In this document: positions 1,832 through 5,928 of the stretch, piece by piece
Layout of the letters: each line of letters starts with the position of its first letter
How positions within the stretch are numbered: the first letter of the stretch is position 1
Assembly (NCBI GenBank): GCA_001751225.1
Contig: MAXT01000348.1
Coordinates: 1-15,358, forward strand
DNA length: 15,358 nucleotides
Source of the DNA: Desulfuromonadales bacterium C00003107
GTDB lineage: Bacteria; Desulfobacterota; Desulfuromonadia; Desulfuromonadales; Syntrophotaleaceae
Reading direction: 5' to 3'
The notes under the pieces: generated by a model
The model's input: only the letters and a program-made list of their open reading frames with translations
The model's database searches: none
What the model was told of the DNA's origin: nothing
Made by a program: the position numbers and the translations under genes

Positions 1832-2872
1832 TTATTTATTCCCGTAGGCCTCTCGTCCAATAACTGTCGCTGCTTCAAGGGTCTCAACAGGGAAAGTTAC
1901 GCCAAGGGCCTGAGCCATCTTGAGATTAATGATTAGACGACCGCGCTCGTTTTGGGCCAAGGGGATATCGGTCAGTGCCCGACCACCCAGGATCTCCAAG
2001 GCGGTATCAGCCGCCCATTCTCCCTGCTCTTCGGGGTCTTTGGCAAGGGTAGTCAGGACAAATGGAGCCATAAACGGGTTGTGGGAACCAGTGGGAATCC
2101 GGATGTGTTCGGCTAGGAAGGCCTCAACGGTGGCCGCGTCCCAATCGGCGATGCCTGAATAATTGTAGATATAAAGCATGTCGACCTCGTCCTGGGCCTG
2201 CAAAAAGGCCTCTTTGAAGTCGGTCAGAGTCCGCACCAAGTAAGTCTTCATCTCGCCAGCGAAAAAACGGCGATTGTAGTACTCGATGATCTTCCGCTCG
2301 GTAAATACATCCCCGCTGAGGTAGCCAACACGACGCCCTTTGGCATAGCGAGATAAGTGTTCGACTTGGTTCTCAACCAGATCCACTTCCACCATGCCGG
2401 TGACATTGCGAGCGGGAAAGCCATAAACAGAAGCATCCCAGTTAACGCCACAGAATACCACCGGCAATTCGGTGTTCTTCAAGTAGGGCACCACCAAGTA
2501 CTTGACGGCGTTATCGTCCGAGGCGATCATCAGATCCGGACGAAAAGCATCGATCTCTGCCTTGATCCTTAAGGCGGCCCCACGTATCTGGGCTTCGGAA
2601 GAGCGCCGTTTACTGTCCATGCGGACGATACGCAGCTCAACACCGCTATCCTGTAATACCCGGCGAATACCTTGTTCGATACCGGCAGTCCATTCGTAGG
2701 ATTGGTGATAGGAGTCGACCCAGAGGATTTTTTTACCAGGGAAAGAGCGGCGGGAAGAAGAAGCCGACTCACCGGCTGCCGCCCCGCCAGAGCACAACGA
2801 CATCGCCAGAGTGGTCAAAAAAACCAAACGGAAAAGCTGTCTCATCAACCTGCTGCGTGTCTTCCAAAGCAT
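1832..2872 (-). CDS. Periplasmic substrate-binding protein, PF04392/COG2984 type (promoter-proximal paralogue)
   Basis: This is the first gene of the three-gene binding-protein cluster. I chose the ATG at 2872 because GAGGTG sits 4 nt before it; a TTG at 2884 and an ATG at 2845 are also in frame. From 2872 the protein has 346 residues, with a basic N-region (MLWKTRSRLMRQLF), a hydrophobic core and cleavage near GGAAAGES. The mature part shows KKILWVDSYHQSYEWTAGIE, RPDLMIASDDNAVKYLVVPY, VVFCGVNWDASVYGFP and PEEQGEWAADTALEIL, nearly superposable on the 765-1766 product. The divergent neighbour is a bd-like oxidase operon, so a shared control region separates them. There is no lipobox. The substrate is not deducible from sequence. 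Membership in the PF04392/COG2984 family is by motif recognition, not by a search. Confidence 0.88.
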   Translation of the reverse strand: MLWKTRSRLMRQLFRLVFLTTLAMSLCSGGAAAGESASSSRRSFPGKKILWVDSYHQSYEWTAGIEQGIRRVLQDSGVELRIVRMDSKRRSSEAQIRGAALRIKAEIDAFRPDLMIASDDNAVKYLVVPYLKNTELPVVFCGVNWDASVYGFPARNVTGMVEVDLVENQVEHLSRYAKGRRVGYLSGDVFTERKIIEYYNRRFFAGEMKTYLVRTLTDFKEAFLQAQDEVDMLYIYNYSGIADWDAATVEAFLAEHIRIPTGSHNPFMAPFVLTTLAKDPEEQGEWAADTALEILGGRALTDIPLAQNERGRLIINLKMAQALGVTFPVETLEAATVIGREAYGNK

Positions 2873-2943
2873 AGAGCACCTCAAAACAAGGTTTTGCTGC
2901 CCCTCTTGTAAAAAGAAAACCGCCCTTTTCAGGAATTGTACAG

Positions 2944-3313: not shown

Positions 3314-4867
3314 ATGAACTATCCAGTTTGGTACCTGCCAACCATTGGCGGCGGCACCTTGATTGCCCTGATCGCCATCGGTCATGTGTTCATCTCCCAC
3401 TTTGCTGTCGGCGGGGGCCTGTTGCTGGCCTTGAGCGAATATCTGGCCCGCAAACGTAAGGACGCCGGGTTGCTGGCTTTTACCAAACGCTTCGCCCGAG
3501 TCTTCGTCCTGCTAACCCTAGTTTACGGTAGCATAACCGGGGTCGGCATCTGGTTTGTCATTTCTCTGGTGCAACCGGGCGGCACCTCTTTACTCATTCA
3601 TCAATTCGTCTTCGCCTGGGCGGCTGAATGGGTCTTCTTTCTGATCGAAATCGTCGCCATCTCGGTCTATCTCTATTCCTTTGATCGCATGGCACCGACC
3701 ATCCATCAAGCGGTGGGCTGGATTTACTTTGGCGCCGCCTGGTGCAGCCTGTTTATTATCAACGGCATCATCACCTTCATGCTCACTTCCGGCAACTGGG
3801 CCAGCAACGGATCGTTCTGGAGCGCCTTTTTCAATCCGAGCTTCTGGCCATCCCTGATCTTTCGCACCTTGATGACCGTCATCATTGCCGGTTTGTTCGC
3901 CCTGCTGTTCAGCTCTCTGAGCAAAGACCTGAAGCTGCGTCGACAGCTGGTTCGCTACTGTTGCAGCATGGTGTTGCCGGCATTAATTGCCATCATACCG
4001 ACGGCATGGTGGTATCTTCAAGTCCTGCCGCAGCCCGCCAGAGACTTGGTCCAAGCAGGCTCTCCTACCGTTGTCCGGGCCCTGCACGGAGGTGCTCTCG
4101 GGGTTATTCTTATCGCTTCGGCCCTGCTGCTAAGCCTCTGCTTTCCAATTCGTTATCGCCGCTCTCTGGCAGTCCTGGCTCTGGCCTCGGGCCTGCTTCT
4201 GATGGGCAGCTTTGAATGGACCCGGGAGGCGGCCAGGCGGCCCTTTGTTGTGCAACAGGCGATGTTTTGCAACGGTGTGATTCCCGACCAACTGCAGGAG
4301 ATCCAAGAGCAGGGATTCCTGGCAAAGGCGCGCTGGAGCCAGGTACATCAGGTCGCCGCTGACCCCGCCGCTGCGGGTCGTGAACTTTTCAAATTTCAGT
4401 GTTACTCATGCCACACTCTCAACGGCCCCAACAACGACCTTCTACAGCGAACCCGTTCTCTTGACCAGACCGCCCTCGCCGGTTACATCGGCAGCCTGCA
4501 TCGGGTTCGATATTTCATGCCCCCCTTTGCCGGCAATAAAGATGAGCGCCAAGTCCTAGCGGCCTTTCTCACCGACGGCCTGTTCCCCAGCTTTGAGAAG
4601 CCCGCCGAGCCGCCAAAAGGAATTCATCCAGACCAGTTGCTCTTTGAACAAAACTGCACCCTGTGCCATACCACTGAACTCGTCAAAGACCGCACCGGCG
4701 ACTGGTCGAAGTCCCGCATTCGCAATGCTCTCGACCATCTGAATCGGCTTCATTCAACCATGCCCGACTATAAGGGAACGCCGAGTGAAAAAGATCGTCT
4801 CGCCGAGTATATTTTTCATCTGAATCGTTCGGCCGCTCAACAGCCGGCCAAGGGAGTCGCTCCATGA
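3314..4867 (+). CDS. CydA-like bd-superfamily subunit fused to a di-heme cytochrome c
   Basis: The 517-residue protein has about eight membrane helices (residues ~12-44, 61-87, 97-122, 132-157, 180-202, 213-237, 255-277, 283-299) and then a periplasmic C-terminal domain with two heme c motifs, C363-YS-C-H367 and C448-TL-C-H452, with probable Met ligands M402 and M483. By hand alignment to E. coli CydA, H24 matches H19, E112 matches E107 with the same spacing to the DR pair, E105 lies near E99, and W302/E305/R308/P310 match the WFVAEYGRQPW region including E445. The heme b558 ligand H186 is absent: there is no His between 132 and 257. M393 aligns with Leu257. The Q loop is reduced to about 15 residues and helix 9 is missing, which puts the C-terminus outside, where heme c is attached. 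Positive loops support this topology. The start has AGGAG 5 nt upstream. Probable role: a reductase of O2 or a similar ligand, fed by c-type electrons rather than quinol. Confidence 0.85.
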   Translation: MNYPVWYLPTIGGGTLIALIAIGHVFISHFAVGGGLLLALSEYLARKRKDAGLLAFTKRFARVFVLLTLVYGSITGVGIWFVISLVQPGGTSLLIHQFVFAWAAEWVFFLIEIVAISVYLYSFDRMAPTIHQAVGWIYFGAAWCSLFIINGIITFMLTSGNWASNGSFWSAFFNPSFWPSLIFRTLMTVIIAGLFALLFSSLSKDLKLRRQLVRYCCSMVLPALIAIIPTAWWYLQVLPQPARDLVQAGSPTVVRALHGGALGVILIASALLLSLCFPIRYRRSLAVLALASGLLLMGSFEWTREAARRPFVVQQAMFCNGVIPDQLQEIQEQGFLAKARWSQVHQVAADPAAAGRELFKFQCYSCHTLNGPNNDLLQRTRSLDQTALAGYIGSLHRVRYFMPPFAGNKDERQVLAAFLTDGLFPSFEKPAEPPKGIHPDQLLFEQNCTLCHTTELVKDRTGDWSKSRIRNALDHLNRLHSTMPDYKGTPSEKDRLAEYIFHLNRSAAQQPAKGVAP

Positions 4868-5928
4868 ATCCACTGATCCCTCTGCCGGACCCTATCCCCG
4901 TCTCTTCGGGGTACCTTCTCGCTCTTCTTTTGCTGGTGTTTCCCCTGCACCTACTGTTCATGAACTGCCTGCTCGGCACCACGGCAGTAACACTCTATCT
5001 GCAGCGCCGCTCCGATGCTGTAGCCAACCAGCTTGCGATAGAATTGAGTCGTGCGTTGCCTTTGGTTATGGCCTTCGTCGTCAATTCAGGGGTTGCGTCA
5101 CTACTTTTTCTACAGGTATTGTACGGCCAGTTCTTTTATACCAGTTCGATCCTCATGGGCAGTTACTGGCTAGCCATTATCCCCCTGCTGATCGTAGCCT
5201 ACTATGCCCTCTATTGGGTCGACTTCCGCTATCGGCGCCTCGGTCGGCAGCGTTGGCTGCTACTTTCCGGCGTGTTGTTTGTGTTACTGCTGGTTCCATT
5301 TCTATTCAGCAACAACATGACCCTGATGCTCCATCCGCAACGCTGGTCGGCCTACTTTAGTCAGGACAACGGAACTCTGCTGAACCTAACAGATATCACC
5401 CTCTGGCCCCGCTACGCTCATTTTATTGTTGCCGCCCTTGCCGTCGGCGGCCTGTTTACAGCCACCTTGGGCCGCTGTTATCGATCGAGGGCGCCGGAAC
5501 TGGCCGCCTATGCCCGAAACCTGGGCATGACCCTGTTCAGCCGCCTGACCTTGCTGCAATTGCTCATCGGCCCTTTGTTTCTATTCAGCCTGCCCCAACC
5601 GTTGCGCTGGCAAATCCTTGGCGGTTCGCCTCTGGCGACCCTGCTTATCACCGCCGCCCTAGTCCTGGTGACAGCTTTGCTGGTCAACGCTTTTCAGCAG
5701 CGTGTGCTGACCAGCCTGGCTCTGCTGGTTCCCCTGGTCTGCTGCATGGTCTCCCTGCGAGCATGGCTGCGTAGCGCCTTTTTGCAACCCCACTTCACCC
5801 TCGACCAGTTACAGGTCTCCCCCCAATACTCTCCCCTATTGATCTTTTTAATTGTCCTGCTGTTCGGTAGCAGCGTGATTGGCTGGCTGATCTACCAGGC
5901 CACAAAGGCAGCCCGACAGAGCTCATGA
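4864..5928 (+). CDS. CydA'-like membrane partner subunit of the bd-like complex
   Basis: The ATG overlaps the previous stop (ATGA), which indicates translational coupling and a 1:1 complex. The 354-residue product has about nine hydrophobic helices (near 16-46, 63-88, 95-119, 131-148, 181-204, 223-242, 256-277, 281-299, 327-347), with basic loops predicting N-out and C-in, as in CydA. It aligns with the upstream subunit: H29 in PLHLLF with H24, the LPQP...GGSP loop (243-256) with LPQP...AGSP (239-251), and W301...P309 with W302...P310. H186 in WPRYAHFIVAAL falls at the heme b558 ligand position of CydA. The Glu residues corresponding to E107 and E445 are missing (Leu108, Ser304). It is therefore better described as a degenerate CydA paralogue than as CydB. 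It may hold a low-spin heme b; this is an inference from alignment by eye. Confidence 0.75.
   Translation: MNPLIPLPDPIPVSSGYLLALLLLVFPLHLLFMNCLLGTTAVTLYLQRRSDAVANQLAIELSRALPLVMAFVVNSGVASLLFLQVLYGQFFYTSSILMGSYWLAIIPLLIVAYYALYWVDFRYRRLGRQRWLLLSGVLFVLLLVPFLFSNNMTLMLHPQRWSAYFSQDNGTLLNLTDITLWPRYAHFIVAALAVGGLFTATLGRCYRSRAPELAAYARNLGMTLFSRLTLLQLLIGPLFLFSLPQPLRWQILGGSPLATLLITAALVLVTALLVNAFQQRVLTSLALLVPLVCCMVSLRAWLRSAFLQPHFTLDQLQVSPQYSPLLIFLIVLLFGSSVIGWLIYQATKAARQSS

Follow-up and report, generated by a model that had tools for sequence, protein, structure and literature searches.

The window, a stretch of 15,358 nucleotides from Desulfuromonadales bacterium C00003107 (contig MAXT01000348.1), contains two adjoining genes, A and B. 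Their products probably form a complex of the cytochrome bd superfamily (we put this at about 60%) in which periplasmic c-type cytochromes, instead of quinol, would supply the electrons for reducing O2 to water; sequence and structure prediction show the fold, the residues, the topology and the gene pairing on which this reading is built. As far as we have seen, the pair belongs to a known kind that is apparently uncharacterised in detail. The features concerned are:

3314..4867, + strand: subunit A, 517 aa, a membrane protein of CydA type that ends in two cytochrome c domains
3347..4279, + strand: CydA-fold domain of A, residues 12-322, helices 1-8, without helix 9
4025..4063, + strand: helix 6-7 loop of A, residues 238-250, at the place of CydA's quinol-binding Q-loop (from helix bounds, lengths and control residues)
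4214..4243, + strand: end of helix 8 of A, residues 301-310; E305 and R308, which pair with E. coli E445 and R448, are in 81/81 rows
4364..4576, + strand: first cytochrome c domain of A, residues 351-421, with CYSCH at 363-367 and Met402, both in 81/81 rows
4625..4834, + strand: second cytochrome c domain of A, residues 438-507, with CTLCH at 448-452 and Met483 as probable axial ligand
4864..5928, + strand: subunit B, 354 aa, a nine-helix CydA paralogue in which His29 and His186 are invariant and Met295 and Arg299 nearly so

The initial annotation had described A as having a CydA-like helix pattern, a short helix 6-7 loop in place of the Q-loop, no helix 9, a periplasmic C-terminus and two c-heme sites, and all of this was borne out. 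A matches PF01654, and its predicted structure superposes on CydA, a comparison that had been set beforehand as a refutation test. In the fold of helices 1-8 A resembles the canonical quinol bd oxidase CydAB (qOR; E. coli bd-I and bd-II, G. thermodenitrificans); it differs in lacking helix 9 and, by the helix bounds, the Q-loop, which is reduced to 13 residues. The C-terminal tail is predicted to be periplasmic. The kinship with CydA is drawn from the PF01654 match, the hmmsearch of helices 1-5 and the structure; a global hhalign of A against canonical CydA, forced over the full length, gave a probability of 0.17% (E 0.25).

E. coli CydA residues H19, E99, E107, H126, E445 and R448 correspond to H24, E105, E112, H131, E305 and R308 of A, which are retained in 80-81 of 81 rows with a single gap at position 24; the truncated L060 is the only row without the protein start. 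This pairing was taken from the hmmsearch alignment to 5doq and from the global hhalign, which are both weak in helix 8 (5.3 bits for this stretch of the 5doq alignment) and give the same pairing there. The C-terminal half was misaligned in a MAFFT alignment with E. coli CydA, which was kept out of all residue claims. We take H19, E99, E107, E445 and R448 to belong to the oxygen site of E. coli CydA, and H186 and M393 to be the ligands of heme b558. From the retained residues we infer that O2 would be the substrate of A.

The residues of the quinol side are missing from A. The b558 ligand H186 is replaced by F183 (77 F, 3 L and 1 V among 81 rows), the loop with K252 and E257 is absent, and in helix 7 only Pro251 is nearly invariant, so there is no equivalent of R391 or M393. 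Each of K252, E257, H186, R391 and M393 occurs in 30/30 sequences of the canonical control, made up of the 30 best-scoring matches of the canonical CydA search. Because all of these are lost, heme b558 appears, on sequence grounds, to have gone from A along with the quinol site.

Four residues are conserved in A and new with respect to CydA: H29 (80/81, one gap), H96 (79/81), R184 and E301 (both 81/81). H29 (window 3398-3400) and H96 (3599-3601) occupy the positions of canonical Pro24 and Asp90, each 30/30 in canonical CydA, and are a possible extra cofactor site.

The c hemes are the other addition to the canonical plan. A matches PF13442, a Pfam model named for cbb3 subunit III, and with a cytochrome c domain where electrons would enter it is like the cbb3 and caa3 oxidases with a fused or bound cytochrome c (CcoP), whereas its catalytic domain is of the bd and not of the heme-copper type. 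Identification of A itself as cbb3 subunit III (CcoP) was rejected: the full-length TIGR00782 model has a cut-off of 179.95 and scores 15.6 bits. Chance occurrence of the CXXCH motifs was rejected as well, as was an assembly fusion artefact, the identical architecture being found in L002, L003 and L014 at 93, 84 and 77% identity. Since the quinol-binding part is gone and two cytochrome c units are attached, A probably takes its electrons from cytochromes; entry from c-type cytochromes, proposed in the initial annotation, is still the most likely reading, although one reached by inference.

The start of B overlaps the end of A by ATGA, and B adjoins A at 78/80 loci, in either gene order; L056 has an octaheme A with no B found beside it. 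The initial annotation, confirmed in what it had observed, had missed both this CydA-like partner with its conserved His and Met and the loss of the two b558 ligands from A. His29 and His186 of B are present in 76/76 rows and in 11/11 divergent forms, and Arg183 is also kept. We take His186 to stand where CydA has a ligand of heme b558, beside the quinol site. The alignment of Met295 to A may be off by about two residues. The profiles of A and B are related (hhalign 96.7%, E 3.2e-10). B has a CydA-like fold, and in its ten best structure entries the chain shown is CydA throughout, on which basis B was rejected as a CydB, although Foldseek alone ranks CydB chains among the first. No Pfam family scored above cut-off for B, no significant sequence match was found among solved structures, and hhalign against canonical CydA, forced over the full length, gave a probability of 0.07%. 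Like A, B has no Q-loop: residues 243-255, mainly a short helix, separate helices 6 and 7. The complex would contain a CydA-like B where canonical CydAB has CydB.

In the simplest mechanism heme c would receive the electrons of a periplasmic cytochrome and hand them to the heme pair and on to O2. A reduced cytochrome would dock onto the c-heme domains at the C-terminus of A, from which electrons would reach a heme pair bound by helices 1-4 and 8 (His24, Glu105, Glu112, Glu305, Arg308), and O2 would be reduced there with protons drawn from the cytoplasm. B would be a catalytically degenerate CydA copy in the place of CydB, probably binding a b-type heme through His29, His186 and/or Met295, which would substitute for the heme b558 lost from A. 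For the host this would probably serve oxygen scavenging or microaerobic respiration. Tentatively, the scheme may be extended to a division of hemes between two CydA paralogues: A would hold the O2-reducing pair fed by its attached c hemes, b558 would survive in B (His186 with Met295 or His29), and the c module would be freely exchangeable, with 1-8 CXXCH on A and 0 or 2 on B, wiring the O2 reduction of anaerobes directly to different periplasmic or outer-membrane cytochromes. This extension is possible rather than probable.

A scan of genome contigs gave 110 confirmed relatives, of which 80 were retained. By record title their hosts are mostly Desulfuromonadia and Desulfobulbia, plus a small number of MAGs under the labels Acidobacteria, Aminicenantes, Myxococcales or Bacteroidota; named isolates such as Trichlorobacter thiogenes, Malonomonas rubra and Desulfogranum species carry the pair, so that it could be tested in them. 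At least one CXXCH is present on A at 80/80 loci: one in 5, two in 11, three in 30, four in 4, six in 1, seven in 1 and eight in 28, the frames with six and seven extending to the end of their loci. The di-heme character claimed in the initial annotation therefore holds for the A of the window, which has two motifs, and is not a defining trait, since relatives have one to eight. In a tree of the window, 79 relatives and 8 canonical outgroup rows (L060 left out), 46 forms with one to four CXXCH make up one starred group (SH-aLRT 99), and the count on A switches at least 18 times; the root is unsure, as long branches meet there and a quick method was used.

In the octaheme A of 28 loci (among L044-L081) a seven-CXXCH domain is fused onto a one-heme A. 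Cytochrome c7 and MtrC/MtrF-like models exceeded the cut-off for this extra domain in the three scanned by Pfam. In L057 (5613-7112) the seven-CXXCH domain forms a protein of its own, whose start resembles a signal peptide.

Across the phylum 82/395 genomes match at E <=1e-3; by hand tally about 70 reach 1e-41 or better. Of these, 48 hold forms of 29-41% identity, with open frames mostly of about 440-475 aa. In the 11 divergent loci inspected (8/48 from the phylum and 3 from the class search) each A has one CXXCH, with B alongside, and keeps the equivalents of H19, E99, E107, H126, E445 and R448, except that the H126 position is Leu in one; H96 of A is Arg in 5/11. Two CXXCH are carried by B itself in 6/11 (L146, L149, L150, L151, L155 and L156). 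In L172, a ninth of the 48, a one-CXXCH A adjoins a B without CXXCH. An extra gene with two CXXCH lies immediately upstream of A in L146, L155 and L156.

In the bd superfamily, the OR-C family (Murali, Gennis and Hemp 2021, ISME J) reportedly has cytochrome c and no quinol site. A, having the one and not the other, agrees with this reported definition. Three points are added here: the b558 ligands are lost, the partner is CydA-like and has invariant His, and heme numbers spread widely; any of them may already be in the paper that defined OR-C. The earlier remark that surveys had recorded members of this kind is correct. OR-C is named as one of three cytochrome bd superfamily families in the available parts of PMC10839748, PMC11707229 and PMC13189123. 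According to the parts available of PMC10839748 and PMC12342949, OR-N CydAA' of Nitrospirota and Nitrospinota also has two CydA-type subunits and a putative cytochrome c donor; compared by these descriptions A-B is similar, but has its c hemes covalently part of A. Searches of an open-licence library turned up no biochemistry of a c-bearing bd member, which may exist elsewhere. For Desulfuromonas and Geobacter lovleyi, two genome papers name, in the parts available, only a cydAB-type bd oxidase (PMC8235581, PMC3403914). A 2021 review, as far as its text was available, states that every cytochrome bd known to date is a quinol oxidase (PMC8225038). A bd-type enzyme fed by cytochrome c, if true, would break this quinol-only rule, show how the O2 site works without heme b558, and tie an oxidase directly to the periplasmic cytochromes of anaerobic metal and sulfur bacteria.

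For cable bacteria a CydA homologue has been reported, most being without a complete bd oxidase (available parts of PMC10030654, PMC12093952 and PMC11247825), and A-B might be this homologue. The truncated globin PF01152, sought as a marker of cable genomes, was found in 0/8 genomes of the genus and 0/20 of the family to which G328 belongs and in 14/395 of the phylum. At the six globin loci inspected, out of 15, no ORF of more than 140 aa had the CXXCH to be expected of a globin-multiheme fusion, and no cable genome was recognised.

Three other readings of A-B were weighed. The pair could still be a quinol oxidase: B would oxidise quinol at a new site close to its His186, and the c hemes of A would only relay electrons to the oxygen site. 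The retention of His186, Arg183 and Met295 in B would suit this, as would the window, among whose ORFs no quinol:cytochrome c complex was recognised (by eye, five ORFs by Pfam). The missing Q-loop of B argues against it, as does the variation from one to eight c hemes, which is to be expected of a docking module, and we regard this reading as unlikely. The octaheme form above all raises the question of an electron conduit, linking periplasmic or outer cytochromes with the membrane without being an oxidase. The eight CXXCH of 28/80 A proteins, the cytochrome c7 and MtrC/MtrF-like matches and the separate protein in L057 point that way; the invariance of the proton-path and active-site heme residues would then have little reason, and a conduit seems quite improbable.

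A bd-fold reductase or detoxifier of nitric oxide or another nitrogen oxide, fed by c-type cytochromes, is given a similarly small chance. It draws on the gene neighbourhood and on hosts that are, judged by their names, mostly anaerobes. A cytochrome of the octaheme PF11783 family lies directly 3' of A-B in 7 Geobacter-type loci, as L011:10924-12423 by Pfam and in six other loci by membership of the same cluster, and could be a pointer to nitrogen oxides. Flavodiiron-type proteins occur near three loci: an ODP/flavodiiron gene adjoins A-B in L041 (Pfam), L042 has a member of its cluster (clustering), and a flavodiiron-like ORF is near the divergent A of L177 (by eye). Such neighbours fit a defence against O2 or NO. 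This evidence is thin, with Pfam scans of neighbours at five loci only, and the tested acidic and His residues of CydA O2 chemistry are retained, which speaks against this reading.

The source MAG (G000; 2.53 Mb, 86.8% complete, 7.3% contaminated) has A as its sole PF01654 match and carries one heme-copper oxidase subunit I; no PF02322 (CydB) partner was found in this 86.8% complete assembly. Within the genus, G119, G120 and G121 add a canonical CydA, and G000 and the 99% complete G122 show the A type only. B is present in 74/277 genomes of the class; by hand tally a canonical CydA (E 1e-100 or better) accompanies B in 58 of these 74, is missing from 13 and was undecidable in 3, so A-B is often not the sole bd-type oxidase. 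The gene order 3' of A-B is common to L002, L048, L059 and, by eye, the window. On the other side, divergent to A-B, three tandem paralogues (2-715, 765-1766 and 1832-2884, minus strand) share an ILWVDSYH motif and signal-peptide-like starts; one matches no Pfam family, and two match PF04392, ABC substrate-binding.
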